Part shown: piece after piece, positions 14,892 to 58,477 of the stretch
How the letters are laid out: each line of letters starts with the position of its first letter
Position numbering within the stretch: the first letter of the stretch is position 1
Assembly: GCA_002070115.1 (NCBI GenBank)
Contig: MWCO01000002.1
Span: 124,001 to 188,000, forward strand
Direction of reading: 5' to 3'
Length of the DNA stretch: 64,000 bases
Origin: Deltaproteobacteria bacterium ADurb.Bin207
GTDB lineage: Bacteria > Myxococcota_A > Polyangia > Polyangiales > Polyangiaceae
Notes under the pieces: model-generated
Seen by the model: only the letters and a program-made list of their open reading frames with translations
Told to the model about the DNA's origin: nothing
Databases searched by the model: none
Position numbers and translations under genes: made by a program

Positions 14892-15012
14892 GATGACGAA
14901 AAATCTTAGAGGAACAAGCGGACGTGAGCAAGCCCAGCGCACGGGCCCTCGACCACCCACGACGGCTTTCCTACTGCCTATCCCCTTTGGATTGGCTCGC
15001 TCGTTACCTTCA

Positions 15013-36847: not shown

Positions 36848-36952
36848 TTGTGTACGCCAGGGTGTTGCATATTCGCCACACCCGCTTGTAACGTATCCTT
36901 CAAATTGGTCTCCGTTCGCAAGAACCGATACGATCAACGGGCGCCCGGAGAC

Positions 36953-39268
36953 ATGAGCAAGCATCCCGCGAAGGTATCCCGTAAGAGCGCTCCCAGTTCG
37001 GAGCCGAAGGTTCTTATGCAACTAAGCGCCTGTCGGGGTGGGCTTGCCCTCGAGCTGGCCGAGCCTTTTACCGTGGGTCCGTTGACGGTAACGCGTCTGG
37101 TGTCGTCCCTGCAGGGCCTGTCATTTCCGATAGATTTGACAGGGGGAGTAGGGCGTTTTCGTCATCGTCGCGGCGTTCTCGATCATTTGGTTGTGGAAAG
37201 CCAATTGGCGCAACTAGCCATGGCGCTACAACCGCGTGCGCGTGCGGTTTTCGATTCTCCCAAACTTCGGCTTTCGCTACTTCCCACGGCCCTGGGGCTT
37301 TCGGTGGGTGTATGCGATGAGGACAGGGCCCTCAGTTTTTCGGCGCACTTCACTTCGGATGGGCCGACGCTTCAATTCGTGGTTAGCGATGCGCGCGCGG
37401 TGGGGTTTGGATTTCACAGTCATGCCCTCGCGGTGCGTTTGGCGCGAGCGCTCACGGGTTGCACGCAATCGCAGGGAAGCCTCATCAGCTTGGAGCGTGG
37501 GATCGCGCACCTGGTGCGAGAGGTATTGTTGGACGCCGGGGCTCGTCTTCCATCGTGTCAACAGTTACAGTACGCATGGGACGAGACGTTGGATGGAATT
37601 CGGTTGACGGCTAGTTCAGCGGCCCCCGAGGCTTGCCCGGCGGCGGAAGTGCTGCGTGCGATCGAGTTGGCGACCATCGCGCGGCAGGGGGATGAGGCGC
37701 TTGTAGCGGGAAATTTTGACGATGCGCGAGCGGCGTATGTGACGGCGTTGGAATCCGCGCCGCGTCATCCCGATCTTGCGCTTCGGATTGCCGAGATCGA
37801 CTTGTTGGCGGGATACGCACCGGAATCCGCGCTTGCGTCGCTGGTGGAGACGATGCCGGCGCTTGACGGTGGACTCATTGGCGCTGAACTTCTCGCGGCG
37901 CTCGGCGATCGACAAGCATCGGTCCTCGCCTTGCGACGGGCGGCGGATCGTGAACCTTTTGCGCCGATGGCAGCTCGAATGCTCGGTCGGGCAGCAGCCA
38001 TCACCGAAGAGCGTTCCGACCGCTTATCGTTGCTAGATGAGGCTCTTGCGCGCTGCGTCGGGTGTGAGTCGATTCGTTGGCAGCGAGCGATCACAAGGTT
38101 GGAAGCCGGCTGTTTTTCGGACGCGATCGCGGATTTAGGTCATCTCGAAGCAGCAGCCCAGGGAGCCGAAAAACGCTACCAGGTTTGTCTTCGCGCCGGA
38201 CAACACCTTCTTCAGGCACGGCTTGCCCTGGACGCCCGCACTTTTTTTGAAAAAGCCTTGCGCTATGCACCTCGAAGTGCGCAAGCAAGCTCGGGGCTCG
38301 CACGCGCATTTTATGCCCTCGGCGATGGGCGTCGCGCGGTCCGTTTGCTCACCCGAGCCACAGAACTTTCCGGTTCCTCCTCTCCACCCCCAACGACTTT
38401 GCTGGAGCTAGCCACGGCGATCGTGGAATTCACGCGGGATTATCCTGCAGCGATTTATCATGTGCGGTCGATTCCCTTCGGGTTACCACAAACGGTTGCT
38501 GCACGTGCTCTCGAAGGCAGATGGCGCAATCAGCTCGGTGATATCGTGGGAGCGAGCCATGCGTTTTCACAAGCCAGAGAAGCCGCGGCACAGCTTCCCC
38601 GAGACACGATCGCAGAGCAATCCCAATGGCTCATCGAAGCCGCGCAATTCGAATTGGATATCCGCAACGATCCTCGCGTAGCCAAACGCCACGTAGAGCT
38701 TGCGCTTCAGGCCGATCCGAACAATCCACACGTTCAGCAGGTGTTTCGTCGAGCGGTTCGGGAGGAACAACAAGCCGTCGCGACACGGATGGATCCGGTG
38801 GCTTCCCCTGAGAGCCACGACGGTGCCGCCGCTTCTGATTCGCCTCTCGTCATTGCGGACGAACCCATAACGAAGTCCGCGGTGTCGAGTACCAACTTAT
38901 TCGACCCGGCATCGACTTCCGGAGAGATATATGACGAAGGGCCACTCGATGCGAACGAAGAGGCCCAGATCGAAGTGTTGGAAGACCGGGTACTCGCGAA
39001 TCCCAATGACCAAGAAACCATAAGACAATTGAGCGAATTGCTCGATCGAGGAAAGCAATACCCAAGGCTGCTGGCCCTGGTTTCGGCGCGATTGGACGAG
39101 ACTTCTGAACCATCTTATCGGGCCGAATTGATGGCAATGCGGATACACGCGTTACAGCAGCTCATGGCTGCCTGTCGCGCCCAGGGCAACGAAGGGGAAG
39201 CGGAGTTATATGAAGCGGCTTTGGCCGACGCTACTGAGTCGAGTTCGGACGATTCCCTGGAAGGATAG
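36953..39268 (+). CDS. TPR repeat protein, 771 residues
   Basis: ATG 36953 follows CGGAG by three bases; the frame extends to 36848 without support. The first 210 residues are not TPR but alternate strands and helices (LSACRGGLALELAEPFTVG; RLSLLPTALGLSVGVC). TPR-like helices fill about 230-640 (EALVAGNFDDARAAYVTALE; LARAFYALGDGRRAVRLLTRA). After a low-complexity acidic stretch the C-terminus (LEDRVLANPNDQETIRQLSE, then LLALVSARLDE) resembles one unit of the giant protein encoded on the other strand. No signal peptide was seen. The last 38 bp overlap the aminotransferase gene. The function is unknown. Confidence 0.8.
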   Translation: MSKHPAKVSRKSAPSSEPKVLMQLSACRGGLALELAEPFTVGPLTVTRLVSSLQGLSFPIDLTGGVGRFRHRRGVLDHLVVESQLAQLAMALQPRARAVFDSPKLRLSLLPTALGLSVGVCDEDRALSFSAHFTSDGPTLQFVVSDARAVGFGFHSHALAVRLARALTGCTQSQGSLISLERGIAHLVREVLLDAGARLPSCQQLQYAWDETLDGIRLTASSAAPEACPAAEVLRAIELATIARQGDEALVAGNFDDARAAYVTALESAPRHPDLALRIAEIDLLAGYAPESALASLVETMPALDGGLIGAELLAALGDRQASVLALRRAADREPFAPMAARMLGRAAAITEERSDRLSLLDEALARCVGCESIRWQRAITRLEAGCFSDAIADLGHLEAAAQGAEKRYQVCLRAGQHLLQARLALDARTFFEKALRYAPRSAQASSGLARAFYALGDGRRAVRLLTRATELSGSSSPPPTTLLELATAIVEFTRDYPAAIYHVRSIPFGLPQTVAARALEGRWRNQLGDIVGASHAFSQAREAAAQLPRDTIAEQSQWLIEAAQFELDIRNDPRVAKRHVELALQADPNNPHVQQVFRRAVREEQQAVATRMDPVASPESHDGAAASDSPLVIADEPITKSAVSSTNLFDPASTSGEIYDEGPLDANEEAQIEVLEDRVLANPNDQETIRQLSELLDRGKQYPRLLALVSARLDETSEPSYRAELMAMRIHALQQLMAACRAQGNEGEAELYEAALADATESSSDDSLEG

Positions 39269-40139
39269 CGGGAAGACCTCCGATGGCACGGAAAGCCCGA
39301 TGAATGGCTCGGGTGATGGGGCCCACTTTTCCCGTTCCAATCGTTCGATCATCGATTCGCGTAACCGGCAACACCTCTCGGGTCGTCGACGACACGAATA
39401 CTTCATCTGCATCGAGGAGTTCCGTTTGGGTCAAGGACGTTTCGCGCAGCTCAAGTCCCTCGTGCGCTGCGGCTTTCAAAAGATACGATCGAGTGATTCC
39501 TGATAGAATTCCTTCGTTTACGGGTGGCGTCCTAATCACGCCGGAGCGAACGATGAAGACGTTGGAAGAAGCTCCTTCGAGCACTCTACCTCTGCCATCG
39601 ACGATGATGGCTTCTTTCGCTCCCACGGCGTGCGCCTGTCGTAATGCCAGCAAGCTCACCAGATAGTTGGCAACTTTGGCACCTGCGGCGGACGTATTAT
39701 CTGTCGTTCGCTGGCTTTGAAAGAGAGCGGCGGCGATACCATCTCGGTATTGATCCTCCGAGGGAACGAGCAAAGGCACCACGATCATCACGCGCGTCGG
39801 TTGGCGTGCCCCCGTGGGATCCAGTCCATAAGGTCCAATTCCTCTGGTGATGTGGACACGGATCAACAGATTGGGAAGCTCCAGCAACGAGGCCGCATGC
39901 AAGATTTCTTGTGAGAGTCGGTCTTTGGACACGGGGATATCGATGAAAACCTGCTCGGCGGATCGGAACAGACGATCGATATGTTCGCGAAGCGCAAATA
40001 TTTTTCCATCGTAGGTTCTCATCACCTCGTAGATCGAATCGCCGTACAGAAAGCCTCGATCGAATACGGAGATCCGTGCTTGATCTTGGGCGACGACCTG
40101 ACCGTCGATCATAACCGCGAAGATTTCTGATTCTGTCAT
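39231..40139 (-). CDS. class IV aminotransferase (D-amino-acid / branched-chain type)
   Basis: The 302-residue PLP enzyme has SVFDRGFLYGDSIYEVMR near the N-terminus, the Schiff-base Lys155 in AAGAKVANYL, E188 in RVLEGASSNVF, and EGILSGITRSYLL binding phosphate. It belongs with D-alanine transaminase, BCAT and 4-amino-4-deoxychorismate lyase; FDRGFLYGD and RTYDGK favour a D-amino-acid or branched-chain aminotransferase, but the substrate is undecided. Its ATG overlaps the acyltransferase stop (ATGA, 40139-40136), making it the last gene of the giant-TPR operon. Its 3' end overlaps the convergent TPR gene by 38 bp. Confidence 0.9.
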   Translation of the reverse strand: MTESEIFAVMIDGQVVAQDQARISVFDRGFLYGDSIYEVMRTYDGKIFALREHIDRLFRSAEQVFIDIPVSKDRLSQEILHAASLLELPNLLIRVHITRGIGPYGLDPTGARQPTRVMIVVPLLVPSEDQYRDGIAAALFQSQRTTDNTSAAGAKVANYLVSLLALRQAHAVGAKEAIIVDGRGRVLEGASSNVFIVRSGVIRTPPVNEGILSGITRSYLLKAAAHEGLELRETSLTQTELLDADEVFVSSTTREVLPVTRIDDRTIGTGKVGPITRAIHRAFRAIGGLPAILPGNRPNSTQ

Positions 40140-40798
40140 GGGTTTGCGTGAAAGTGGGAGAGGGTGCAGGGCGCGCTCTTCGTAGCCGACCAGCTTAGCA
40201 GGAGGTCATGGGCGCGTTGCGTGGTGTGATCGATGGCGCATGCCAGATCCCGTTCATTGATTGCGCTTGGATTTGTGATGGGTTTGCCAAGCACGATGAC
40301 CATGCGACTGAACGGTCTCGGAATGATGAAACGATCCCAGGAAGCGAGGCAGAAGCCATGGGAGCATGCGGCGGCGTAGGGAACGACCCAAGCGTGTGCG
40401 CGATAGGCGGCGGCAAGGGCACCAGGGCGTGCGACTTGTCGCGGTCCACGAGGGCCATCGACCGCCAATGCAGCATCCCATCCTTCTTGCACTCGTTGGA
40501 CAATCGCTTGAAGCCCTTGCCTTCCTCCTTTCGAACTCGAGCCCCGCATCGAAAACACCCCAAACCAACGCATGGCCCAGGTCAAACGCTCACCATCTGG
40601 GGAATGACTGACCAGGGCAATGGTTCGGCGGCACCTACGATGGGCAAGGAGAAGGAGCAATTGCCCGTGCCAAAGGGCGAGAACACGTGGCTGGCTGGAA
40701 TCGTTGAGGAGAGGATGCTGAAAGACGCGAAGGCGAACCGTGAGCAGCCAAGCTCGCGCGACCAAACCCAATGCGAGGCCGACGAGCATCGAGAGCAT
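40136..40798 (-). CDS. DUF374 lysophospholipid acyltransferase-like protein
   Basis: The start is ATG 40798, four bases after the stop of the giant TPR gene. The frame that continues to 41338 lies inside that gene and is an out-of-frame shadow. The 220-residue product has one N-terminal membrane helix (LVGLALGLVARAWLLTV), RVLALWHGQLL, the DUF374 motif SHSPDGE, and VDGPRGPR, then a family C-terminus. DUF374 proteins belong to the PlsC-like superfamily and are thought to acylate lipids or lipid A precursors. AAGG in the upstream gene serves as ribosome-binding site. It overlaps the aminotransferase gene by 4 bp. Confidence 0.87.
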   Translation of the reverse strand: MLSMLVGLALGLVARAWLLTVRLRVFQHPLLNDSSQPRVLALWHGQLLLLLAHRRCRRTIALVSHSPDGERLTWAMRWFGVFSMRGSSSKGGRQGLQAIVQRVQEGWDAALAVDGPRGPRQVARPGALAAAYRAHAWVVPYAAACSHGFCLASWDRFIIPRPFSRMVIVLGKPITNPSAINERDLACAIDHTTQRAHDLLLSWSATKSAPCTLSHFHANP

Positions 40799-40802
40799 GC
40801 GC

Positions 40803-43800
40803 TTATGCCTTGAGCTTCTCGTAGAGTTCTTTTGCTTTTTCGAAAGAAGCGTCGTTTTCGAGGGCTCGCTCGAGCATCTGGATGGCTCTTTGCGTCTCCC
40901 CTTGTCGGTGGCTGATTTCACCGAGGTAGTAGAACACCTCAGCTTTGGTGATCGGCGCCTTATCATCCAAACGTTGGAGTAGTAGAGCCCGGAAAGTTTT
41001 CTGCGCTCGATCGAGATCGCCCAAGTCGAGAGCCAGGCGTCCCAGATCGACGAGAATGGCGAGGTTACCCGGTGTGATGCGGAACGCCTGATCGAGTTCG
41101 GCGAGGCCTTGTTCCTTGTTGCCTTCGGAAACGTGGGCCTTGGCCAAACGGTGATGAATGGCCGCCAATTCTTTGACTCGTTTTCCGCCGTAAGACTCCA
41201 CGATTTTTTCGAGCGCGGAGATGGCATCCTTGCCACGTCCGGAGGCGCTATAGGCGTCGCACAGCGAAAGCAGCAACTCCCTATCGTCGGGGGCCAGCTC
41301 GCTAGCCTGGTCGAGGAGTTTGGCAGCCGTGGCGGCATCGTTACGTTTGGTCATGTGAATATCGGCAGCCCGCTGAAGCAACTTGACCTTGTCGGCAGGA
41401 TCTGACGCGTTTTCCGCATCTTGCGCGAGCATGGCGGCAACTTCCGCCCAAGCGCCCGTCCGCTCGTACAGCTTTCTCAACATCTCGCGCACTTCCGCGG
41501 ACGCCGGATTGGCAGCCAAGCCTCGTTCGAGCACGCGGCGCGCTCCGCTTTCGTCTTCCATCAGATCGAAGATTCCGGCAAGACGAAGAGCCAAGGTGAC
41601 CGCCTCATCGCCTTCGAGCAAAGCAAGCAGCCGTTCGAGTGTTTCGACCGCTTTCTGTTTGTCACCCGTGGCTTCGTACAGACGGCCCAGCGCCTCGAGG
41701 GCTTGTTTATGCGATGGGTCCCTTTCGAGTACGGCCCCGAAGGTGTCGATTGCTTTCTGTTTATCTCCAAGTCGTGTTTCGTAGACCTCACCCAACCGGA
41801 CCGTGAAGGTAAGTTCCGCTTCTGCCTGTCCATTTTCTTTTGCGAGTTTGATTTGCGTGTCGAGCAAGTCCGCGAGGTCCCTTATTCTTTCCGTGCGTTC
41901 ATAGAGTTGTGAAAGAACCACGACGGCATCGGTCTGTCCGGGTTCCTCATCCAACACGCTGAGCAGCACGAAGACGGCCTCATCGACTTGGTCAAAACGA
42001 GATACGAGCAAATCCACCAATTCCAAGCGAAGTTTCGTGCGTTCCGATGCATCGGAAGCCACATCGATGAGACGGCCCAGCAATTCGGACAAGTCCTTGA
42101 AACGCTTTTGGTCCGCATAGAGTTTTCTAAGAGCCGAAGCAGCTTTCGAATCCATGGGGTCGGCTTCGAACACTTCTTCATAGATTTTCAACGCGCGTTC
42201 CGGCTCCTGGAGCTGGCTGCTCAACACTTCCGCGGCTTGATGGCGAAGCTGCAACGAATCCGGACCATGGGCCGTCAGCTCGGCACGCTTGAGCAGAAGC
42301 TCCACCACTTCCGCAAAATCCTCTTTCTTTTCGCGAAGTTGAGTTAGCTCCTCGTAGGGCCATAGGTAACCATCATCGAGTTCGATGAGTTGTCGAAGCA
42401 CTTGTTCGGTAAGTTCATCATCCGCCAACACGGCGTGAGCGAGCGTTTTGGCCTCACGGAACAACTCACGACGTTTTTCCGTATCGAGGTCAAGGATGGC
42501 GCGACGGCGCAAGGTAGCGATGAGATCTCGTTCGCGACCTGGTTCCCGCTGAAGTTCTTCAATGGCTTGAAGCAACTCGAGGTTGTCAGGGTCGACATGG
42601 AGCGCCTGCTGCATGGCGGACTCCGCGGATTTTCCGTCCGCCAGGCGTATTCGGTACCAGTCAGCGAGGCGCACGTACAGATCTCGCAGGGTCATGGGAT
42701 CCAAACCGTCGGCCTTGGAAAGGGCCCCGTGGAAAGCTTTGCAAGCTTCTGTCCACTGCTGGTTGGCGCCAGCGAGTTGCTCGAGTTTTGCAAGGACGTC
42801 GGAATCGCAGACGTCATCTTCAAGGGCGGCTTCGATCACGCGTTGAGCGCGCTTCGGATCTTCGGCTTGCTCTTCCAGAACGCCCGCGAGATCAAGACGT
42901 AAGCGCAGTCTTTCGGAGGGGTCTTCCGCGAACGAAACACGTTTTTCGTACAGCGATGCCAGGCGCGAGAAGTCGCCTCTTGCGCGATACACGCCTTCGA
43001 GAGCAGCCGCAGTGTCCTCGAACAAGTTCTTGTCCTCGGTAAGTTTCTCTAACGTATCGCAAGCTTTTTCGTGAGTAGGAACATGGTCCAAGGCCTGGCG
43101 GAGGTTCTCCAACGCCGTCATTTTGTCGTCGAACGACTCGAGCTGAAGCACGGCGATGCGGTGATATAGATCGGCTTGTCCTTCCGGCGTCGTTTCCACA
43201 TGGACTCGTCGGTCGAGAATTTCGTTCAACTCTCGGGTGTTGCCCAACTTGGAGTGCAATCGATCCAGCGAAGCTAGCAATTCAGGTTCATCACCAGCTT
43301 GATCGAGGGCACGAGACAGAGCCTCGACGGCACGTTTATCGTTTTCGAGTTTTTGCTCACAGATTCGGCCAAGGCGCTTCCACAAATCGGTGGCGAGAGC
43401 GGCGTCGAAAGTCTTGCCGGCACGTTCTTCCAACACGTCGGCGTATTGCTGGAAGCCGTTGCTGGCGGCTTCGGCCATTCGTTCGATATCGTCGTGCAGG
43501 CCGGTATCCTCGGGGGTTTCCGCCAGGGCACGCAGCAATGCCTCGAGGGCGCGCTCTGTGTTGTGAAGCGAGTCATGCAAGACGGTGGCAATCGACCGCA
43601 AGGTCAACGCTCGTTCGGCAACATCATGTTGTGCGAGCAAGCGCATTTCCATGACAGTAACCAACATATCGAATTGGCTGGTATTGCGCAGGACCGGCTC
43701 CAAGATATCCGCCGCGTCGAGGCGCAGATCTTCGAATCCTTCTCCAATTTCGCGTACGGCTTCGATCGTGTCTCGGTCCTCTGGCGCTTCTTCGAGCACC

Positions 43801-46800
43801 ATTCGAAACGCTTCGAGCGCTTCGGTTGGCTCGGCCATCTCGGAGGCAAGTAGTTTTCCGATTTCCCGTCGAAGCGAGGCTCGCTCCTTTTTATCTTCCG
43901 CGATGGTGGCTTCTTGCCGTAAGGTTTCAAGCAGTTCGGGCCACATTTTTTCTACACGGAACAGCGTTTCGAGTTTCGACAGCACGTTTTTGTCCGCGCC
44001 CCGCACTTCCAACGCCTGTCGCAACACGTCGATAGCCGCCTGGTTATCCTCGAGGTCTTTCTGATACCGGTTCGCCGCTTTGAGGAGCATGTCGTATTTG
44101 AGATCTTCCTCGGCCTCACCTTCCGCAAGTTCGACGCGCCGCTGATAGAGTTCGACGAGTTTATCTCCCGCATTGCGCGCCTCTAGAAGATCGATCAACG
44201 CATCGATGGTCGATGCACTTGCGGGTTCCAATTCGAGAGCGTGCTCGAACGCTTCGATGGCGCCGTGCGCATCTTCGAGCATGTCTCGTTTGCATTCTCC
44301 GACTCTTCTCCATGCCAAAGCGCGATCTTCATCGCTTCCGATCAGCTCGGCTTTTTTCATGAGTACGGAGACAAGGACTTGCCAATCCGCGAGCAGCATC
44401 GATAGCACGTCCATTTTTTCGAGCGGCTCGGCATCCGTTTCGTCCAATTGGTGCAATCGGCTGTAGGCATCGAGGGCACGACGAGGGTCATCTCGTTTTT
44501 CATCGTGGATGGTGGCAAGAGCCGAAAGCAGGTCACGCTTGCCGCTGTGTTCCGCAGCTTCAATACCTTCTTCGTATGCCTCGGCAAGCTCATCCCACGC
44601 GCCAAGCGTCCCTGCCAGCCGTTCCAACTCCTGCCGAATGTCCATGTCTTCGGCATCGATTTCGAAGGCGGCGCGGAACGCATCGAAGGCACGTTGATTG
44701 TCTTTTCCTCTCAACTCCCACAAACGGGCAGTTTCACGGAGAATAGCAACGCGTTCCAGCTCGTCCGTGGACAGGTCGAAGCGCTGTGCATTGAGGTAGA
44801 TTTGCTTGCGCCAATCATCGGCGCCCTCGTAAAGCGGCAGCAAGATATCCACGACGCGCGCTTTTTGATCTTCTCTCGCCAGTAGCGCCTCGAGTTCGGC
44901 AATGGCCAGGTTATTCGAGGGAACCTGCCTTACGATCTCCTCGAGCTGATCGACCGCCGAATCGGCGTCGTTCATTTCATCACGATACAGGCGCGCCAGA
45001 GCGAGACGATACTCACAAGCCCGATCCACATCCGAATCGTTTTCTGCCCTTCGGGCATACAGCTCGGCGAGATCGGCGAAGCGTTCCCGTTGTCGGTACA
45101 GCTCGGTAAGAGCGTCGAGGGAAACACTATCGTTTTCATCGACATCGAGAGCGGCGCAGTAGGTTTCAATGGCCTTGTCGGGCTCTTGGAGGGCCGTACG
45201 TTCGAGTTCGGCGATCGTGTGAAGTATCCGGATGCGGTCTTCCGGTTCGAATCGATGATCCAGGGCTCCTTGATAAAGCTCCACCCGGTCTTTGGCTCGC
45301 TGGGCATCGATGAGCAACTTGTCGATGGCATCGAACAAGACAGTGGAATCGGGTTCGAAAGCCAGTGCGCGGCGATAATGCAGCAGCGATTTTTCCGTGT
45401 CTCCGAGAGAGGCAAAGAGTTCGCCCGTGCGACGCGCCAGGCTTGCGGTGGCTTCATCATCCGACACCACGTGTTCGAGTTCCGCGGCGAAAATCTCGGC
45501 CAAGCGCCGCTCGGCACCCGCCACGCGGGCTTGGCTTTCGAGCTGCTTCCACGTATCACGGTCCGTAATATCTTCATGAAGCAGCTTTGCCGTCGTCTCC
45601 AAAGCCGCCGAGAAGTCCTCTTCCTGCTCTTCTTGCATGACAGCCAAACGACGGAGCAATTCCCTTCGTTTATCCGTATCGGGACAGGCATCCAATCGCG
45701 CGGCGATGGTTCGTTTTACCTTTTTCCAATCGGCCCTGCCGAGGTAGAACGGTTCGAGCATTTCCGCGGCACGAGCGCGATTTTCCGGGTCTTGAGCACT
45801 GTCCAGCAGTCGCTCGAGTTCCGCAATCGCAGCCTCGTTTTGGCTGTCCTCCGCAAGCGCTTCCCCCAACTCATCGAAAGCACGCATCGTATCTCCGAGC
45901 TTTCCTTCCGCGACCTGGGCGATCTTGACGCGAAGCTCGGCCTTGCCCTCCGTGCTTTGCTCGAGTTGCCGTTCGTACAGGGAGATGAGATCGGACGGGC
46001 GCTGTGCCTGCGAATATAGCGTTTCGAGCGCCTCCACGGCTGCCGGATCGAGGTCGATGTCCAAAACGGTTTCGAAAACAGCAATGGCGCCTTCCGAGTC
46101 TTCGAGCACGTCGCTACACAGCTTCGCTTGGCGGAACAACAACTGTTTTCGTTCCTCATCGTTCTCGGCCACGTCCACGCGGCGACGGATGACGTCGAGC
46201 AATGCGGTAGCATCACCGATTTCCTCGTACAACGATTCGAGGGCAACCAAAGCCCTGCGGTCGTCACCACGAATATCCAACGCTCGGATATAGTGTTCGC
46301 GCGCGAGTTCGCGGTCCGCGAGTTCCGTGCGCGCCAGTTCAGCGATTCGTAACGTGACATCCAATTGTACATCGCCGTCGAGAATGTCCGTCACGACTTC
46401 TCGAAGGAGAGTGACAAGGTCGGAGAAGCGACGTGTCGTCGTAGCCAATCGTTCGACGATTTCGAGCCAGATTGTGATTTCTTCGCTTCCCGCCGCTTCT
46501 TTGGTACCCCGCACGGCGAATCCGAAGGCGCGGGAGGCATCGTCGAGCGGCCCCTCCGCAACACGAACCGCCTGTTGAAGCAGCGAAAGACGCTCGTCGG
46601 GATTCAAAGTGGTGTCGGCTTCAATCTCAACGACACGCAGCAGTTTTTCATTGTCACCATCGGCTTCGTACAACGGGTGCAATACCTGAGCCGCCTCTCG
46701 CTTCGCTCCTTCTTCCGTCAGCAAGCGTTCCAGAGCCTCCCGACTCGGTTTATGACTCGGATCCACCGTCAATGCTTGCCGGAAAGCATCCAGGGCACCG

Positions 46801-49800
46801 TCGAGGTCTTGCAAATGTTCGCGGCGCACATCGCCCAACCTCACCAATAAGGCGAGCCGATCGGCTGGCTCATCGGCCAGGTTCAAGTGCGTGTCGATAC
46901 AATCGGACAAGTCCGTCCACCGCTCTGCTTTTTCATAAAGTGTTTCGAGCGCTTCCAGGGTCGAGGGGTCGGGACCGTAATCTTCGACGATGGCGCGCCA
47001 CGCAAGCGTGGCTTCGGATACATCCTGGAGCTGATTGGTTAGGGTTTCGGCGATACGAACCATCAAGCGACGACGTTCATCGGCGTCTTCGGCGCCGTCA
47101 TGACGCGTTCGCAACACGCTCACCAAGTCCCGCCATGCTTGGACTTTCTCGAACAACCGTTCGAGCGCCACAAGGGCGGCCGGATCGACGGGGTCATCCT
47201 CGAGTCTCGACCGCCAGGCATCGATTGCCCCAGGCCAATCCTCCAAGATGTTTTCGCAGATCTCGCCCAGTCGGCTGTAGATTTCGGCTCGACGCTGGGC
47301 ATCATCTTCCAGTTTTACCTCGGTGCGAAGCACTTCGACCAAGGCAACGTGGTTTTCCAGACCCGCATAAATTTCCTCCAGCGCCCGTCCGGCAGGCAGC
47401 ACGAGGTTCGGGTCAGCGGGGTCAATCGCCAACACACGACGATACACGGCTTCGGCCCGTTCGACATCGGAGAGGTGATCTCGGTAAATGGAAGCGACAT
47501 CCATGAGGATGGCGCCTTGAACATCGGGGGTAAGGGAAAGCACGGCCGCTTGTGTCAGCACCTTGGCTGCCGTCTCGTGCTCTCCAATTCTCCTACCGAT
47601 GTCGATGAGTCGGGACCGTGCGTGGCCATCAATCGGATCGAGTGGCACAAGCTTGGTCAAGGCTTCAAAAGCACCTTGATCATCGGCAAGCCTTTCATCA
47701 CGCAAGGCGGCCATGCGCCGGAGCAATTCTCTTCGCTCCGATTCATCCTCGGTCACTTCGAGGCGAATATCGAGAACACGAACCAGATCCCTGATTTCGT
47801 CGCGATTTTCGTAAACCTCTTCCAACACTCGCGCGGCACGAGCGCGCAACGCCGGCACCGTAAGCAACCGTTCCGCCAAGTCGCGCGCTTCCTGCTCGCT
47901 CGGGCGAAGATGCAAGACGTCTTCCACGTGGGGCATGGCGTTGACAGGATTGCCAAGGTTATCGAGGTGGAGCTTTCCAAGGCGCAACTTGATGGCGATA
48001 AGGTCGGATTCCCCTGCCCGATTCAGCCGACCTTCCAACAAGGAGACCAGTTTGTCATACCGTTTTTCCGAAGCGTATAGCTTCTCGAGAGCCATCGTCG
48101 CCGTACCATGCAGCGGATCGATGTCCAAAATCCGTTCGTAATAGTCGATCGACTTGCTCGGATCCTCGATGATGTCCTCGCAAATCATGGCAACTTCAGC
48201 AAGAAACTCGATGCGACGCGCGCCGTCGGTGGTACCGGTGATGGCGCGAGCGTATAAGGCTTCCAGGTCTTGCCAACGTTCACGCGACATGAGGATCTCC
48301 TTGAGATCCTTGAAGGCTTCCTCGTTGGCCGGCTGACGAGCCAATACGCGCTCGAGGTACGGAATGGCGGCATCTTGATCGCCAATATGCTCACGACACA
48401 GCTTCGCCGCGCGCTGACACAATTCCACCTCGATATCATCGGGCAACGACAATTGCGTATCGAGAACCGATCGATACACCTGGGCCAGTTCCCCAGGCCT
48501 TTCGACCACGATCGACAAATCTCGAGCACGATCCCAAAGTGAAACCTGCTCAGGGAACTCCGTCACCGCTTTGAGTACGACATCGAAAGCCGTACTCGCA
48601 TCGCGCATTTTCAATTCATACACGTCGATCAGCCGAAGGAGCAGTTGCAAACGCTCTTGGGAATCGGTCGTGGCATCGACGAGCAGCGCAAGCGCATCTG
48701 CCTCGCGCGTGGGATCTCCCAAATCCGCATGCACACCCACCAACAGCGACGCAGCACGCGCGCGTGTTTCCTCGGTTCCTACAAGCGCATCGAGGACAGC
48801 GATCGCTCGAGCCGAGTCTGCATCATGCTCCAGCGCCCGTTGTACCGCATCGAGGGCATCCAAGGGTCGTTGCAAACGCTGCACATACAATTCCGCAAGC
48901 ACCAATTCCAATTCCCCCCGCTCCGCTCCCTGCTTTTGATCCCGATGGGTTTCCACGATCTGCGCCGCTGCCGCAGCATTTCCTTCCGCCAAAAGCAGCC
49001 GTGGCAACGATGTGAGCGCTTGCGTATTGGAAGGGTCCAACTGCAACGTTCGACGATACAAGGCGATGGCACCGTCGGGCGACGAGAACGCATCTTCTTC
49101 GAGAGTTGCCCATTCCGTAAGCAGAGCGATTTTGGAAGAGTCGTCGGCTCGTTCGATCCGGAGTTCGAACAGCCAGCGCAAGTCATCCTGCCGTGCGGCA
49201 GCGCGCAAGATTCGGTCCAGGGTTTTCAGGATATCGATGTCGGAAGGGTCTTCTGCCACGATCTGACGATAGGTCTTGATGGCATCTTCCATTCGACCGA
49301 GGTCGGAGGCGTACACATTGGCAAGCCGAAGCTGAAGCGCGCGGATTTCGTCCGCTGGCATATCTGGGTCGTTGGCAATCCGTTTTTCCAGCGCTTCTAC
49401 GAAAGGCTCCCACAAAGCCGCAGCCCTCGCATACCCTTCGAGCAGTTCGAGAGCGCCTTCAGCATCCGGTGCCAAGTCGAAAGCGCGGCGGGCATACGTC
49501 AAGGCGGCTTCCTTGTCGGACAGACGGTTTCCCGTCACGTCCGCGAGTTTGCGAAGCAACTCGAGTTGTCGCTCGGGGTCTTCGGAACGCGCGAGCAGGA
49601 TTTCATACAATGCAGGCAGACGACTCCAACGCTCGTCTTTTTCATAGATGGGCACCAAGGCATTGGCCGCGCGCAAGTCATCGGGCCGTACGCTCAACAC
49701 GCGCTCATACGCGCGAAAAGCTCGTTCGGGGGCCTGAAGCTTCGACTCAAAAACCTCGGCAACTCGGAAGGATAGATCGACTTTCGATTCGGTCACGGTC

Positions 49801-52013
49801 GTTCGATCCGCGGCCGATGACAACACCTCCGCAAGCCCCTCCCAATCGTCATTTTGTCCGTATAACTCAGTGATCGCGTCAAAATCCTCCGCGGCCAAGT
49901 AGGCGTCGCGAAGCACACGCATGGCGCGAGAATGGTCCGGTCGGATTTCGAGCACACGACGCCAGGCCGAAGCAGCCCGGCGAGGGTCGTTCAGCCTTTC
50001 CGCGTATACGCCACCAAGCTTCTGCAGCACGGCAATTCGGGCGTTTTCGTCTTCGGCTGTCTGCACCCGTCGCTCCAGCACTTGCGCTACCGTTTCGTAA
50101 TCCTTGTCACGTTCACCCTGTTTTTCGAGGGCATCCATGACTCCCGGCGCGTGCGGATCGATCTCCAAAATCTGTTTGTAAAGGGCGATGGCATCCGCGG
50201 CACGGTCAAGTCTCTCCGCTGCCAATTTGGCCATCTCCGTGAGCAGCCGAACCTTCGTCTCTTCATCGGCATACTCGACTTCTTTGCCGAGAAGACCGAA
50301 GAGCTGCGGCCAAGCGCGGCGACGTTGGTATAGGTCACGCAACCGCTGCCTGGCTTCTTCATCTGTTGGATCCAAGGCGAAAACGCGCTCGAACACATCC
50401 GTAGCGTTTTGCACGTTCTGGAATTGCTCCATCCACCGCTTTCCCGCCGATCGAAGTAACGAAAGTTTCTCTTGCGGATCGTCGGAAAGCTCCGCGAGTT
50501 TCTGCTGATGAACCAACAGGTCCCGCCATCGCTGCAAGGACTCGTACACACGACAAAGCTCTCGCACGGCCGCCACATCGCTGTCGTCGAGGGCCAAGAT
50601 TTGGCCGAGTACGGTCACCAAAGCGCTGTCGCTCTTGATGTGGTCACGATATACCGCCGCAATCTCACGAAGAACTTCGAGACGCCCCTGCGCATCGTCC
50701 GCGGCAATGGCATCGAGGTCCTGCCGAAGAACGTCGACAAGGGAAGTCCAGGCACTCGTTTGACGGTACAGACGCTTGAGCGCACCACGGGCTTCGCGGT
50801 TTCCGGGGTCCTGACGCAACAGAGCCTTGTATTGTTCGATGGCTTTGTGGACGTCTTCCTGGTTCTCGGCGAGTTGAGCGATCTCCGCGGCAAGCTGTGC
50901 TTTCTGATCGCCATCGGGCAAAGAGCGCTGAGCATCGGTCAAAATGGTGATGAGTCGGGAGGTATCCTTGCGCTGCTCACACCACGTTCGATAGAAACTG
51001 AGCATGCCAAGGTGAGCGGGTTCGGTGCGTCGCACCTTGTCGAAGTACGGTTCTGCAAGGTCGGGTTCTCCCCGCATGCGCCAATGGACCATGGCGATTT
51101 GAAGCAGGATCCCGAGGTCCTGCCCGGACTTGAAAGCACCGCTTCGAAGATGATCTTCGTACAAGGCAACGAGATGATCCCATTGCTCTTCCCGACTGAA
51201 GTAGTCAGACAGGAAGTTCATGGCCTCCGGATACCCAGGGACGAGGTCGAGCGCTCTTTCGTAGGCAGCAACACCACGCGCTTCGGCCCCGAGCTTTCGT
51301 ACGACGACTCTGGCCAAGCGCAACCACGCGGCGAACCTTTCCTCTCGGACCGGTGACTCCGTTGCCAGAATTTCGAGGATTCGACACGCGTCGTTCCATC
51401 GCTCCACCTGTCGGTAGACACGCTCCAACAACATGCAGGCACGACGATTGCGGGGATCGAGTTCGATGGCCTGTTCGAGCAAAGCCATGAGTTCATCAAG
51501 GTCGAGTTGCTCCCGCCCGAACCGGAACTTGGCTTCGGCCACCCAAGACAGCATCGAGCTTCGAATGGACGAATCCTCGACTCCTTTGGCCTCTTCGAGC
51601 TTTCGTTCGGCCAATTCCTCCCAAACGGCGCGCTGGTCCTCGACACGCGCCATCGCTTCCGTGGCCGTCGGATCGTCCGGGCGAAGGTCCAGCCACCGCT
51701 TATAAACATCGACCGCTCGCTTGTCGTCGAGTAACTCGTCCTCCAACACACGAGCGAGTTCCGCCAACCGTGCGACTTCTTTTGAGGAACCTTGACATTG
51801 AGCGATCTCATACTCGAGCAGATTGGCGACAGCGGACCACTCTCGCCGGGTTTCGTGTTCCCTTCGGGCCGCTCCGAGCAGGTCGATCAGTTCCTCATCG
51901 GATAATCCCACATCAGGCGAGGTGAGGGCATCCTGCAATTCGAGCCAGGCAGCCTCGTTGTCTTCGTCGTCTTGCAACAACCCAAGAGCATTTCGAATCT
52001 TCTGCGAGCTCAT
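40803..52013 (-). CDS. giant TPR-like repeat protein, 3,736 residues
   Basis: ATG 52013 has GGAG five bases upstream and begins MSSQKIRNALGLLQDDEDN; the frame runs 76 codons further without support. The product is one uninterrupted alpha-solenoid of TPR-like units about 72 to 95 residues long, roughly 45-50 in number. The unit reads approximately 'R..LL.RLA.l....L.D...Ai..y..vLeldP....A...Le.LY....rW.dL...le.r...a.d'. It is rich in Asp and Glu, has no signal peptide, membrane helix or catalytic motif, and should be a cytoplasmic scaffold. The acyltransferase gene starts 4 bases after its stop. The last units (40850-41500) are closest to ordinary TPRs. The role is unknown; similar very long TPR proteins occur in other Myxococcota. 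Confidence 0.93.
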   Translation of the reverse strand: MSSQKIRNALGLLQDDEDNEAAWLELQDALTSPDVGLSDEELIDLLGAARREHETRREWSAVANLLEYEIAQCQGSSKEVARLAELARVLEDELLDDKRAVDVYKRWLDLRPDDPTATEAMARVEDQRAVWEELAERKLEEAKGVEDSSIRSSMLSWVAEAKFRFGREQLDLDELMALLEQAIELDPRNRRACMLLERVYRQVERWNDACRILEILATESPVREERFAAWLRLARVVVRKLGAEARGVAAYERALDLVPGYPEAMNFLSDYFSREEQWDHLVALYEDHLRSGAFKSGQDLGILLQIAMVHWRMRGEPDLAEPYFDKVRRTEPAHLGMLSFYRTWCEQRKDTSRLITILTDAQRSLPDGDQKAQLAAEIAQLAENQEDVHKAIEQYKALLRQDPGNREARGALKRLYRQTSAWTSLVDVLRQDLDAIAADDAQGRLEVLREIAAVYRDHIKSDSALVTVLGQILALDDSDVAAVRELCRVYESLQRWRDLLVHQQKLAELSDDPQEKLSLLRSAGKRWMEQFQNVQNATDVFERVFALDPTDEEARQRLRDLYQRRRAWPQLFGLLGKEVEYADEETKVRLLTEMAKLAAERLDRAADAIALYKQILEIDPHAPGVMDALEKQGERDKDYETVAQVLERRVQTAEDENARIAVLQKLGGVYAERLNDPRRAASAWRRVLEIRPDHSRAMRVLRDAYLAAEDFDAITELYGQNDDWEGLAEVLSSAADRTTVTESKVDLSFRVAEVFESKLQAPERAFRAYERVLSVRPDDLRAANALVPIYEKDERWSRLPALYEILLARSEDPERQLELLRKLADVTGNRLSDKEAALTYARRAFDLAPDAEGALELLEGYARAAALWEPFVEALEKRIANDPDMPADEIRALQLRLANVYASDLGRMEDAIKTYRQIVAEDPSDIDILKTLDRILRAAARQDDLRWLFELRIERADDSSKIALLTEWATLEEDAFSSPDGAIALYRRTLQLDPSNTQALTSLPRLLLAEGNAAAAAQIVETHRDQKQGAERGELELVLAELYVQRLQRPLDALDAVQRALEHDADSARAIAVLDALVGTEETRARAASLLVGVHADLGDPTREADALALLVDATTDSQERLQLLLRLIDVYELKMRDASTAFDVVLKAVTEFPEQVSLWDRARDLSIVVERPGELAQVYRSVLDTQLSLPDDIEVELCQRAAKLCREHIGDQDAAIPYLERVLARQPANEEAFKDLKEILMSRERWQDLEALYARAITGTTDGARRIEFLAEVAMICEDIIEDPSKSIDYYERILDIDPLHGTATMALEKLYASEKRYDKLVSLLEGRLNRAGESDLIAIKLRLGKLHLDNLGNPVNAMPHVEDVLHLRPSEQEARDLAERLLTVPALRARAARVLEEVYENRDEIRDLVRVLDIRLEVTEDESERRELLRRMAALRDERLADDQGAFEALTKLVPLDPIDGHARSRLIDIGRRIGEHETAAKVLTQAAVLSLTPDVQGAILMDVASIYRDHLSDVERAEAVYRRVLAIDPADPNLVLPAGRALEEIYAGLENHVALVEVLRTEVKLEDDAQRRAEIYSRLGEICENILEDWPGAIDAWRSRLEDDPVDPAALVALERLFEKVQAWRDLVSVLRTRHDGAEDADERRRLMVRIAETLTNQLQDVSEATLAWRAIVEDYGPDPSTLEALETLYEKAERWTDLSDCIDTHLNLADEPADRLALLVRLGDVRREHLQDLDGALDAFRQALTVDPSHKPSREALERLLTEEGAKREAAQVLHPLYEADGDNEKLLRVVEIEADTTLNPDERLSLLQQAVRVAEGPLDDASRAFGFAVRGTKEAAGSEEITIWLEIVERLATTTRRFSDLVTLLREVVTDILDGDVQLDVTLRIAELARTELADRELAREHYIRALDIRGDDRRALVALESLYEEIGDATALLDVIRRRVDVAENDEERKQLLFRQAKLCSDVLEDSEGAIAVFETVLDIDLDPAAVEALETLYSQAQRPSDLISLYERQLEQSTEGKAELRVKIAQVAEGKLGDTMRAFDELGEALAEDSQNEAAIAELERLLDSAQDPENRARAAEMLEPFYLGRADWKKVKRTIAARLDACPDTDKRRELLRRLAVMQEEQEEDFSAALETTAKLLHEDITDRDTWKQLESQARVAGAERRLAEIFAAELEHVVSDDEATASLARRTGELFASLGDTEKSLLHYRRALAFEPDSTVLFDAIDKLLIDAQRAKDRVELYQGALDHRFEPEDRIRILHTIAELERTALQEPDKAIETYCAALDVDENDSVSLDALTELYRQRERFADLAELYARRAENDSDVDRACEYRLALARLYRDEMNDADSAVDQLEEIVRQVPSNNLAIAELEALLAREDQKARVVDILLPLYEGADDWRKQIYLNAQRFDLSTDELERVAILRETARLWELRGKDNQRAFDAFRAAFEIDAEDMDIRQELERLAGTLGAWDELAEAYEEGIEAAEHSGKRDLLSALATIHDEKRDDPRRALDAYSRLHQLDETDAEPLEKMDVLSMLLADWQVLVSVLMKKAELIGSDEDRALAWRRVGECKRDMLEDAHGAIEAFEHALELEPASASTIDALIDLLEARNAGDKLVELYQRRVELAEGEAEEDLKYDMLLKAANRYQKDLEDNQAAIDVLRQALEVRGADKNVLSKLETLFRVEKMWPELLETLRQEATIAEDKKERASLRREIGKLLASEMAEPTEALEAFRMVLEEAPEDRDTIEAVREIGEGFEDLRLDAADILEPVLRNTSQFDMLVTVMEMRLLAQHDVAERALTLRSIATVLHDSLHNTERALEALLRALAETPEDTGLHDDIERMAEAASNGFQQYADVLEERAGKTFDAALATDLWKRLGRICEQKLENDKRAVEALSRALDQAGDEPELLASLDRLHSKLGNTRELNEILDRRVHVETTPEGQADLYHRIAVLQLESFDDKMTALENLRQALDHVPTHEKACDTLEKLTEDKNLFEDTAAALEGVYRARGDFSRLASLYEKRVSFAEDPSERLRLRLDLAGVLEEQAEDPKRAQRVIEAALEDDVCDSDVLAKLEQLAGANQQWTEACKAFHGALSKADGLDPMTLRDLYVRLADWYRIRLADGKSAESAMQQALHVDPDNLELLQAIEELQREPGRERDLIATLRRRAILDLDTEKRRELFREAKTLAHAVLADDELTEQVLRQLIELDDGYLWPYEELTQLREKKEDFAEVVELLLKRAELTAHGPDSLQLRHQAAEVLSSQLQEPERALKIYEEVFEADPMDSKAASALRKLYADQKRFKDLSELLGRLIDVASDASERTKLRLELVDLLVSRFDQVDEAVFVLLSVLDEEPGQTDAVVVLSQLYERTERIRDLADLLDTQIKLAKENGQAEAELTFTVRLGEVYETRLGDKQKAIDTFGAVLERDPSHKQALEALGRLYEATGDKQKAVETLERLLALLEGDEAVTLALRLAGIFDLMEDESGARRVLERGLAANPASAEVREMLRKLYERTGAWAEVAAMLAQDAENASDPADKVKLLQRAADIHMTKRNDAATAAKLLDQASELAPDDRELLLSLCDAYSASGRGKDAISALEKIVESYGGKRVKELAAIHHRLAKAHVSEGNKEQGLAELDQAFRITPGNLAILVDLGRLALDLGDLDRAQKTFRALLLQRLDDKAPITKAEVFYYLGEISHRQGETQRAIQMLERALENDASFEKAKELYEKLKA

Positions 52014-52513
52014 CGTCACTCCATCCAGGAGGTCGTCGTTCAACAGGAACGAGATTCGGTTCGAAAGCGGGTACCCAAATGGCACGCCAACGGCTCGTGC
52101 CCTTTTCCGCGCTTCACCGAGTCTTCCGGAAACCAATGGTCCCAGGAAAGGGCACCCGCTGAGGGTCAGGATGCTACGCCGCAGGGGTCGTGGATACAAG
52201 ACACGCCAGTCGTTAAGGCGGATAGAGAAGGAAATCGTCAACCGGAGCTTGACTTTGGGAACGGGATCGGCTTTCGGGCGAGGGCTGACGCGCTATTATT
52301 CATATTTTTCTAAGTAGTTATACAATATATATATTCCTTATTTATGATTTCGAATTGGAAGCGTCATTTCGCTGATGACAGGGAAATAAGTTTCACGGTT
52401 TCCCCTCCATCGCAAGCTTGCGTTTGCCCGCGCTCGATGTGCTATGATGCGGCAAGCTATTCGTAGCGTTGCCGATGCCGATGGCGCGTTACGCTCATCA
52501 CGCGAGACTTCCG
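52014..52513. other. divergent intergenic region with AT-rich tract
   Basis: This 500-bp gap separates the giant TPR gene (minus) and lolA (plus). The section 52300-52370 is strikingly AT-rich for this DNA and holds the palindrome AATATATATATT (52324-52335). A promoter candidate for lolA lies at 52418-52448. The frame upstream of 52013 is open to 52241 but lacks a start signal. Confidence 0.45.
52418..52448 (+). promoter_or_regulatory. candidate promoter of lolA
   Basis: TATGAT (52443-52448) matches the -10 consensus at five of six positions. TTGCGT (52418-52423) is a poor -35 at 19 bp. A start near 52455 would leave a 20-60 base leader depending on the lolA start codon. Confidence 0.3.
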
Positions 52514-55834: not shown

Positions 55835-55946
55835 GATGGTGGTTTTCTGATTTCCGGGGGATATCGACACGAGCAGGTCACCGGCTCGGTAACCGGGGAA
55901 GCGTCATGTCTTGGCAGCGAGCGTAAGCCGTGTATTCTCTTGTCCC

Positions 55947-57239
55947 ATGATGGAGAGTTCAGGCGTGGAAGGAGCCGCCCTGAGTGCGATCGTACTTGGG
56001 GCATCGGTGTTTACTCTGATCTTATTGGGGGCGATGCTGCTGATCATTCAGCGTTTGTTGCTCATCTGCCCACCCAACAAGGTCCTCATTTTCAGCGGAA
56101 GAAAGCATAAGCTTCCAGATGGTTCGGTGGTGGGATATCGGGTCTTGCATGGTGGCAGGGGAATCAGAATTCCGCTTCTCGAGACGGTATCTGAGCTGGA
56201 TATGCGGATTTTTCCCGTTCAGGTAACGGTTCAAAACGCCTTTTCCAAAGGCGGCATCCCGTTGGCGGTACAAGCGATCGCGAACGTGAAGATATCGAGC
56301 GACCCACGCTTTCTCCGAAGCGCGGCGGAACGGTTCCTCGACGTTCCGGTCCAGCGTTTGGCGGAGGTGGCCAAGGACACGCTGGAAGGAGCGCTGCGAG
56401 AAGTGCTCGCGGAATTGACACCGGAAGAGGTCAACCAGGATCGTCTCAAGTTTGCGGACAAGCTGTTGAGCAATGCGGGAGACGACTTCGAACGGTTGGG
56501 TCTGCAGCTCGACGTTCTGAAAATCCAGCATGTGTCCGATGAGCAGGGGTACTTGACGAATTTGGGGCGTGAAGCCATTGCGAACATGCTTCGCGATGCG
56601 GAGAACGCCGAGAACGCGGCGAACCAAACGATTGCCGAGGCGCAGGCTGCCGCACGAACCCGGGCTGAGACCGCGCTAAAAAATGCGGAAGCCCAGGTTC
56701 TCAAGAAAAAGAACGAGTATCAAACCCAGCTTGCCAAGCTCGAAGCCGAAGCCGCCTCGGCAGAAAACGAGGCCACGGTCGATGCGGAGACGGCTCGTTC
56801 CATGGCGGAGCAAAATCTTCAAGAAATGCGCAAGCAGTACGAGCAGCTTCGTCTCGCCTGCGATGTCGTTCTTCCCGCCCAGGCAAAACGCCGAGCGGAA
56901 GAGCTTTTGGCTCGCGGAGAAGCTTCACCGTTCATCGAAACGGGCAAAGCCCGTGCGATAGCGCTGCAAGCGGTCGTGGCGGAATGGACGGCCGCTGGGC
57001 TTCAAGGGCGCGAGATTTACGTTTTGAACCATCTCAAAGAGCTGGTCGAGGCTGCGGTACAAAGGACAGCCTCGACGCAAATCAAAGAGATCAACGTGGT
57101 CGATGGCGGGGATGCGGCCAGTTATGGCTCTTTTGTGGCTGCTTTTCCCCAGGTTGTCAGTCAGATCATGCAGGAGACGGGACAAGCGGTGGGGGTGGAC
57201 CTGGGTGCGATGCTTCAGTCCCGAAAGGCAGGTGGGTGA
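55947..57239 (+). CDS. flotillin-like SPFH protein 1
   Basis: The ATG at 55947 (or 55950) fits better than the frame start at 55911. The 430-residue product has one N-terminal membrane helix (IVLGASVFTLILLGAMLLII), RLLLICPPNKVLIFSGRKHKL and an SPFH domain (about 55-225: GGIPLAVQAIANVKIS, TLEGALREVLAELTPEEVNQD). A long Ala/Glu coiled coil (230-330) follows, then a flotillin-type C-terminus (ETGKARAIALQAVVAEW). Flotillins form oligomeric scaffolds in membrane domains. Its stop overlaps the start of its paralogue by one base (TGATG). Confidence 0.9.
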   Translation: MMESSGVEGAALSAIVLGASVFTLILLGAMLLIIQRLLLICPPNKVLIFSGRKHKLPDGSVVGYRVLHGGRGIRIPLLETVSELDMRIFPVQVTVQNAFSKGGIPLAVQAIANVKISSDPRFLRSAAERFLDVPVQRLAEVAKDTLEGALREVLAELTPEEVNQDRLKFADKLLSNAGDDFERLGLQLDVLKIQHVSDEQGYLTNLGREAIANMLRDAENAENAANQTIAEAQAAARTRAETALKNAEAQVLKKKNEYQTQLAKLEAEAASAENEATVDAETARSMAEQNLQEMRKQYEQLRLACDVVLPAQAKRRAEELLARGEASPFIETGKARAIALQAVVAEWTAAGLQGREIYVLNHLKELVEAAVQRTASTQIKEINVVDGGDAASYGSFVAAFPQVVSQIMQETGQAVGVDLGAMLQSRKAGG

Positions 57240-58477
57240 TGGGCATCATCGGCGTTTTGTTTTTCGTGGCGATTGTGGTTGCCGCGTTCATTCTCATCAC
57301 GATCAAGCGAATGCTATATGTCGTTCCGCCCAACCAGGCGATGATCCTGTCGGGAGCCAAGCGAAAAATTGGCAACAAAGTGCTTGGTTTCCGGGTCGTT
57401 TGCGGCGGCCGAGCGCTGAGAATCCCGTTGTTGGAGCGGGTGGATTTCATCGACCTTCGCAACATCAACATCGACGTGGAGGTTCGTGGCGCCTTTTCCA
57501 AAGGAGGCATCCCGTTGAACGTCAAGGCGGTGGCCAACGTCAAGCTTCCCGGCGAAGAACCGATGATCCACAACGCAGTCGAGCGTTTCCTTGGAAGAAA
57601 CCGCAATGAAATCATGTATATAGCCAAAGAGACCCTGGAAGGCAATCTGCGTGGGGTGTTGGCGCAGCTCACCCCGGAGGAAGTGAATGAGGATAAAAAC
57701 CGTTTCACGCATATTCTGACGGAGGAAGCCGAGCACGACCTGTCCAAGCTCGGCATCAAGCTGGATCAACTCAAGATTCAGAACGTTACGGATGACGTGG
57801 GGTACCTCAATTCGATTGGTCGAATCCGCGGTGCGAGTCTTCGGCAGCGAGCGGTCATTGCGGAAACCCAAGCGCAATCGGGTGCGGCGGAGCAGAAGGC
57901 GTTGAACTGGAATGCATCGGAAATTGCCCGTTACGATGCGGAGATAGCGATTGCGGAGCGGGAGATGGCCAAACGCATCGTGGATGCGCGGACGCGACGG
58001 GATGCGATGATTGCCACGGCGGAAGGAGAAGTGCGGGCACAAATTGCGAAAGTGATGGCGGAGATCAAGCGCCAACAAGCACGGGCGGTGCAGGTGGAGC
58101 GTCAGCTCGAGGCCGATGTGGTGCAACCAGCGGATGCGGCTCGGCTACAAATGGAGGAGGCAGCGGTAGGCGCGGCCGCAGCGATCGTCGAGCGCGGCAA
58201 GGCGGAAGCAGCGGCGTTGCATCAACTCGTGGAGGCCTACAAAAAGGGAGGAGCGGCAGCCAAGGAAGTGCTGGTTCTTCAGAATATTTTGCCCATGATT
58301 CAAAAGATCAGCGGAGCAGAGCATCCGGTTCGCATCGCCAAGGTTACGGTGCTTCCACGAGCCTCAGGGGAGCAGGAGCCGTTGGCTCGTAAAATCATTG
58401 GAGCCAACGAGCAACTCAAAGCGGCCACCGGTGTGGATCTAGCCAGCGTTGCCGCACGTATCACTTCGAAAAGCTGA
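57239..58477 (+). CDS. flotillin-like SPFH protein 2
   Basis: ATG 57239 is fixed by the TGATG overlap and by AGGTGGG upstream; a longer frame from 56984 lies inside gene 1. The 412-residue paralogue has the helix IIGVLFFVAIVVAAFILITI, RMLYVVPPNQAMILSGAKRK and RGAFSKGGIPLNVKAVANVK. It also has ETLEGNLRGVLAQLTPEEVNED and a coiled coil rich in Ala/Glu/Arg (RYDAEIAIAEREMAKRIVD). The SPFH regions of both proteins align well, whereas the tails differ, so they may co-assemble. Gene order nfeD, SPFH1, SPFH2 suggests one membrane-domain complex. Confidence 0.91.
   Translation: MGIIGVLFFVAIVVAAFILITIKRMLYVVPPNQAMILSGAKRKIGNKVLGFRVVCGGRALRIPLLERVDFIDLRNINIDVEVRGAFSKGGIPLNVKAVANVKLPGEEPMIHNAVERFLGRNRNEIMYIAKETLEGNLRGVLAQLTPEEVNEDKNRFTHILTEEAEHDLSKLGIKLDQLKIQNVTDDVGYLNSIGRIRGASLRQRAVIAETQAQSGAAEQKALNWNASEIARYDAEIAIAEREMAKRIVDARTRRDAMIATAEGEVRAQIAKVMAEIKRQQARAVQVERQLEADVVQPADAARLQMEEAAVGAAAAIVERGKAEAAALHQLVEAYKKGGAAAKEVLVLQNILPMIQKISGAEHPVRIAKVTVLPRASGEQEPLARKIIGANEQLKAATGVDLASVAARITSKS

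Follow-up and report, generated by a model that had tools for sequence, protein, structure and literature searches.

The question raised by this locus is whether an open reading frame of 11 kb, found in a 64,000-nucleotide stretch of the genome of Deltaproteobacteria bacterium ADurb.Bin207 (the window), is a gene kept by selection and, if so, to which family its product belongs and what such a giant might do in the cell. The intact frame of 3,736 codons described in an earlier reading made from the sequence only was confirmed and lies on the minus strand (ATG at 52013, TAA at 40803-40805), with stops throughout the plus strand across the same interval (Table 1). The frame can be extended upstream by 76 codons to a TTG at 52241, which would give a protein of 3,812 aa. 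This start was set aside in favor of the ATG at 52013, as the N-termini of orthologues agree from that ATG and a GGAG precedes it.

The sequence-only reading had taken the intact 11-kb frame as a sign of selection. The selection is real, but the open frame itself is no proof of it, since open frames of 3,800-4,500 codons run antisense to the giant gene in GC-rich relatives, the longest with 4,513 codons. These antisense frames are presumably a by-product of codon usage and are a caution against inferring a gene from a long open frame. Evidence of selection comes instead from the relatives. In a scan of named genomes, full-length relatives with 65-68% identity were found in three metagenome-assembled genomes (Myxococcota or, by the older name, Deltaproteobacteria). 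Among 60 genomes of the host's family, probably Polyangiaceae, 58 contained a match and at least 54 an orthologue of the window type, mostly 44-72% identical, with the divergent orthologues of two genomes (G011 and G012) assigned by profile; most of the 60 also contained a further giant with about 30% identity. An internal stop, a single TGA in a fragmented genome, was present in only one of the matches. Across the phylum, a TPR query that matches both types of giant described below yielded matches in 73 of 143 near-complete genomes. Among four orthologues, dN was 0.14-0.29 and dS ranged from 0.73 to over 2.5, with dS saturated for the pairs that include the window gene. On the basis of dN relative to dS and conservation across the phylum, rather than frame length, the giant gene is intact and under purifying selection. 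The earlier reading had named absence of the gene from relatives, or broken copies in them, as the mark of a decaying gene; intact full-length orthologues, together with dN relative to dS, rule out such decay into a pseudogene. That this is a neutral or decaying repeat gene, open by chance, is an explanation that could draw on how common long open frames are in GC-rich genomes, even antisense, but the gene is under strong purifying selection and occurs throughout the family, with intact frames and a near-constant length, which makes this explanation extremely improbable.

Table 1. Features of the giant gene, its surroundings and its relatives. Positions refer to the window unless preceded by a genome or locus handle; residues are those of the 3,736-aa protein.
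Feature	Position	Strand	Remarks
Giant TPR solenoid gene (A type), 3,736 aa	40803..52013	-	Full-length orthologues in L002-L004 and others
N-terminal conserved zone, residues 301-840	49494..51113	-	60-residue mean relative entropy 1.8-2.3 bits
C-terminal conserved zone, residues 3601-3736, regular TPR cluster and closing helix	40806..41213	-	2.1-2.3 bits
Units 14-26, residues 1029-2016, 13-unit block copy one	45966..48929	-	Separation-13 peak, lag 993
Units 27-39, residues 2017-3028, 13-unit block copy two	42930..45965	-	Separation-13 peak, lag 993
AlphaFold2 segment, residues 1400-2420	44754..47816	-	pLDDT 87.5
DUF374 protein	40136..40798	-	PF04028, E 2.3e-19; 4-base gap downstream of giant gene
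Class IV aminotransferase, PLP enzyme	39231..40139	-	PF01063, E 3.4e-58; 4-base overlap with DUF374 gene
806-aa protein with few TPRs, after MlaC-like gene	36848-39268	+	Length 759-806 aa among close relatives
Host paralogue (GltI type), ORF of 3,812 aa	G000:C8:39105-50543	-	
C-terminal domain of about 318 aa	G000:C8:39108-40061 (L032:9109-10062)	-	Also in L111-L124; no Pfam match
Host glt-like cluster	G000:C8:39105-61348		GltI-type giant, TPR lipoprotein, GltG, weak GltE-like, 1,251-aa protein, GltC
Antisense open frame	L002:8291-21832	-	Opposite giant gene
Antisense open frame	L034:3692-15118	-	Opposite giant gene
Antisense open frame	L037:3818-15226	+	Opposite giant gene

The composition of the protein is of an acidic, soluble, helical type (net charge -268, 13% Ala, 15% Leu). 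Pfam profiles matched TPR_19 (E 6.7e-46), TPR_14, TPR_8 and others, and no family outside the TPR type was found with Pfam and NCBIfam, so that the protein, consisting of tandem helical hairpins that match TPR profiles, belongs to the TPR superfamily. Its NCBIfam scores were below the equivalog cut-offs for XrtA/PEP-CTERM PrsT (271.8 bits, cut-off 312.2), MamA (180.9 bits, cut-off 200) and PilW (92.5 bits, cut-off 154). No stretch resembling a membrane helix was detected (highest 19-residue Kyte-Doolittle mean 1.59), and no signal-peptide-like start was seen by eye, in agreement with the earlier reading, which had noted the lack of other domains, signal peptide and membrane helices. Given the lack of a signal peptide and membrane helix, the protein is predicted to be cytoplasmic.

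The autocorrelation of the protein peaks at 72 residues, and an iterated single-unit profile with the consensus DLAEDPEERLALLLRLAELYEDRLGDPERAIDALERALELDPDDPEALEALERLY gave 53 matches (51 at E<0.01), so that about 50 repeats of about 72 aa run from end to end. AlphaFold2 models of residues 1400-2420 (57 helices, pLDDT 87.5, pTM 0.38) and of the C-terminal 647 residues (36 helices, pLDDT 89.9, pTM 0.51) were all helical, and in both a helical solenoid reaches the two ends of the segment. In these segments, the ordinary 72-aa unit consists of four helices forming two TPR-like hairpins. Units 9, 14, 23, 27, 31, 36 and 39 are longer (84-91 aa), as is unit 47 (83 aa), and the long units of 88-91 aa within residues 1400-2420 have five helices each. 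The 93 helices in the modelled residues scale to about 208 helices and about 104 hairpins over 3,736 aa, a total extrapolated from two segments covering 1,668 residues. The 45-50 TPR-like units counted in the earlier reading thus correspond well to the repeats, but each repeat contains two hairpins and the hairpin total is roughly double that number.

The repeats are themselves organized in larger blocks. With 2,000 permutations of unit order, similarity between units peaked at separations of 4, 9 and 13 (z 5.0, 4.7 and 4.7; p at the floor of 0.0005), with a weaker peak at 5, and the residue autocorrelation was concordant at lags of 305-308, 380, 613 and 993. The array is hierarchical, with 72-aa units, blocks of four to five units and a 13-unit duplication of about 990 aa. 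These peaks and lags indicate growth by duplication of four- and five-unit blocks and of one 13-unit segment, the two copies of which are listed in Table 1.

Membership in a family of two ancient members, of which the other is GltI, had been missed in the earlier reading. GltI/AgmK, a large component of the gliding machine (the bacterial focal adhesion), is poorly understood. Every giant that was read, at 42 flanked loci and in two genes of the host genome, was clearly one of two types, here called A (window) type and B (GltI/AgmK) type. In 18 further loci the profile of the window type scored higher in 16 and that of the GltI type in 2. The host genome contains a paralogue of the B type that is collinear with the window protein at 24% identity over 3,060 aa, and the window protein thus has a giant TPR array homologous to that of the GltI type along most of its length. 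Next to this paralogue are genes matching GltG (E 1.1e-85), GltC (E 5.3e-82) and, weakly, GltE, all below NCBI equivalog cut-offs that were set on Myxococcaceae, and a match to the AgmX/PglI C-terminal domain above its cut-off. Across the phylum, the same TPR lipoprotein gene lies directly upstream of the B-type giant in 17 of 21 loci, with a GltG homologue next to it in 16 of 21. From this gltG-like neighbourhood and the published description of the Myxococcus xanthus member, B-type giants are read as GltI/AgmK orthologues. In a search for Myxococcaceae, none of 377 genomes passed the NF033760 cut-off.

In a tree of 43 proteins, built from the collinear N-terminal part of about 905 aa, the two types lie on opposite sides of one branch with a support of 100/99, and the window protein does not fall inside the GltI clade. 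Since the types are fully separated, their split predates the sampled families. No glt gene was found near the window gene or in the flanks of A-type genes at the loci read. Together, these relationships identify the window gene, on sequence evidence, as an ancient sister of GltI and not as GltI itself.

The two types also differ at the C-terminus. B-type proteins end in a non-TPR domain of about 318 aa, whereas A-type proteins do not have this domain and end in a TPR hairpin and a closing helix. The idea that the two are collinear up to the C-terminus was rejected: the register is kept at an offset near -19 residues for units 7-20, then shifts to about -505, and the two types differ by several repeat units in the C-terminal half. 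With the register lost after unit 20, the similar total lengths of A and B giants are partly a coincidence. The same genomes encode many TPR proteins of lesser length (about 500-1,950 aa) that also end in the domain of about 318 aa, which points to a wider family in the phylum that combines TPRs with this domain. A HEL motif in the host copy had suggested an M48-like metallopeptidase at the C-terminus of GltI, an assignment that was not supported, as HExxH is not conserved and no Pfam family matched.

Within each type, the length of the array is nearly frozen. Four A-type orthologues sharing 65-80% identity align in 3,737 columns with five one-residue gaps. The survey of relatives proposed in the sequence-only reading found an A-type core array of 3,189-3,310 aa (SD 36, n=22, across the phylum), and the GltI-type core measured 3,261-3,314 aa (SD 14, n=21). 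The A-type measure covers these 22 proteins, for which near-constancy holds, and the 18 extra loci lie outside it; some distant ones among the extra loci align piecewise or have longer N-termini. For contrast, in the genomes of the four aligned orthologues the unrelated 806-aa TPR gene nearby measures 759, 784, 791 and 806 aa, although its starts are uncertain. As the register is lost between the types and length is near-constant within each, length changed at the A/B split and has been almost fixed since then. Conservation is highest near the two ends of the protein (mean relative entropy for the whole protein 1.73 bits; 22 A-type proteins, phylum-wide).

We favor the reading that the giant is a fixed-length cytoplasmic TPR superhelix that acts as a scaffold, sister to GltI and outside the glt cluster, and place its probability at roughly 60%. 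This reading draws on the end-to-end TPR solenoid and on its one characterised relative, GltI/AgmK, in the gliding complex, and for the same reasons the assembly platform suggested in the sequence-only reading remains its best functional proposal. In such a scaffold, the better-conserved ends (residues of about 300-840 and about 3600-3736) would be docking sites for specific partners, and the long middle with its repeats would hold partners at a set distance or offer many sites of lower specificity, with selection on it acting more on length and helical fold than on the exact residues. Both the scaffold action and the spacer role of the middle are steps that we infer. Against this reading, the gene lies outside the glt cluster, its neighbours are not conserved beyond the order, a scaffold is what one would first propose for any TPR protein, and the overall shape is uncertain (pTM 0.38 and 0.51, with 1,668 of 3,736 residues modelled).

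The nearly fixed length also bears on the other role suggested in the sequence-only reading, that of a true molecular ruler, in which the end-to-end length of the superhelix would determine how far apart two structures lie or how large an assembly becomes. The circumstantial evidence is compatible with it: length is frozen although about one third of residues have changed among close relatives and, phylum-wide, more than two thirds, the ends are better conserved than the middle, and the past duplication of whole blocks shows that changes in length were feasible in principle and yet were not kept. A fixed row of binding sites would likewise hold length constant, a TPR superhelix is a flexible structure, and we know of no structure whose size follows the length of the giant. 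We regard a true ruler as unlikely.

Other roles can be weighed through the gene neighbourhood. In the window, the giant gene, the DUF374 gene and the class IV aminotransferase gene are tightly packed in one direction, separated by a 4-base gap and joined by a 4-base overlap. The giant gene is followed by a co-directional aminotransferase gene in 12 of 23 A-type loci (the window among them), which, among the loci read, all belong to the host's order, and the DUF374 gene adjoins the A-type gene in 6 other loci. This layout could be taken to mean that the giant is a housekeeping platform for envelope or lipid metabolism, tied to these two enzymes. The linkage is lost outside the host's order, where the A-type gene has other neighbours, such as a putative phosphatidylserine decarboxylase (assigned by eye) beside the giant gene at two loci (L046 and L047), and no phylum-wide conserved partner gene was detected in the loci read. 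This metabolic role is accordingly a doubtful one, to which we give little weight. Elsewhere in the window, two overlapping frames at 55911-58477 on the plus strand both match Band_7/SPFH and are possibly a tandem pair of flotillin-like proteins, and the second longest ORF (1,335 aa) lies at 10953-14960 on the minus strand.

The paralogy with GltI suggests a different setting, in which the A-type giant would be a second cytoplasmic platform within the gliding machinery, beside GltI. Nearly all lineages with an A-type giant also carry a GltI-type giant of similar size. Of 143 genomes of the phylum, 73 match the TPR query and 73 the GltI C-terminal domain, the same ones among those listed, two tallies that are not independent since the query matches both types. 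In one genome (G100), no full-length GltI was found and the GltG homologue (371-2671) is at the end of a contig, so that the absence is read as an assembly gap. On the other hand, no A-type gene lies in a glt cluster among the loci read, and a shared distribution may reflect nothing but shared descent. In addition, a 98% complete genome of 3.3 Mb (G079) carries GltI and a GltG homologue on one contig with no A-type gene found, all matches of the A-type query falling within the GltI gene, which indicates that the two giants are separable. A place in the gliding machinery is thus improbable on present evidence.

Comparison with known systems is consistent with the preferred scaffold reading. GltI/AgmK (MXAN_4863) of M. 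xanthus, which belongs to the gliding complex (PMC3169522, PMC9120999), is the one characterised relative: it is a giant TPR solenoid of similar size (3,351-4,021 aa among B-type giants), from which the A type differs in not being beside gltG or gltE, in being without the C-terminal domain of about 318 aa and by several repeat units in the C-terminal half. The published accounts conflict on length and membrane location: one (PMC3169522) gives AgmK/GltI 4,132 aa and neither signal peptide nor transmembrane segment, the other (PMC9120999) describes a transmembrane protein of 3,812 aa. In 2011, GltI was described as confined to Myxococcales, and group A genes as multi-copy at times (PMC3169522). 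Structural neighbours of the AlphaFold2 segments are scaffold TPRs (IFT-A, Ski3, Ctr9, APC/C, MamA, LGN and KLC). Residues 452-636 of the C-terminal model, approximately residues 3541-3725 of the protein, superpose on MamA (Z 18.8, rmsd 2.6, 173 residues, 20% identity, VIA-align), and the C-terminal cluster also superposes on peptide-binding TPRs, but MamA, YrrB and PilF are small proteins with few TPRs and the giant is far longer than any solved TPR chain that was matched. The top Foldseek matches were to eukaryotic scaffolds (IFT-A subunits, Ski3, Ctr9, Naa15 and APC/C), which are likewise platforms of long, irregular helical-hairpin solenoids. Here, identities of 11-15% and TM-scores of 0.07-0.22 show that architecture alone is common to them, with no sign of shared descent. 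In the open-licence literature, no description of the second subfamily, its frozen length or its hierarchical repeat was found, and nothing relevant on KapB or giant TPR proteins.

In total, the GltI/AgmK family has two branches of great age, whose giant proteins are similar in size and, within each branch, almost constant in array length, and the second branch, for which no described function was found, is about as widespread as GltI. Gain and loss of units are the usual course for repeat proteins; that roughly 100 hairpins should keep a near-constant length throughout a phylum is out of the ordinary and needs explaining. One speculative answer, which we think quite unlikely, is that in most gltI-carrying Myxococcota the length-locked giant would be a cytoplasmic ruler or spacer of about 13 turns, some 80-90 nm when extended (figures borrowed from consensus TPR superhelices), and would fix a distance within the envelope-associated machinery of GltI. 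A family of two such branches opens tests of TPR superhelices as length standards in bacteria and of what the second giant scaffolds.
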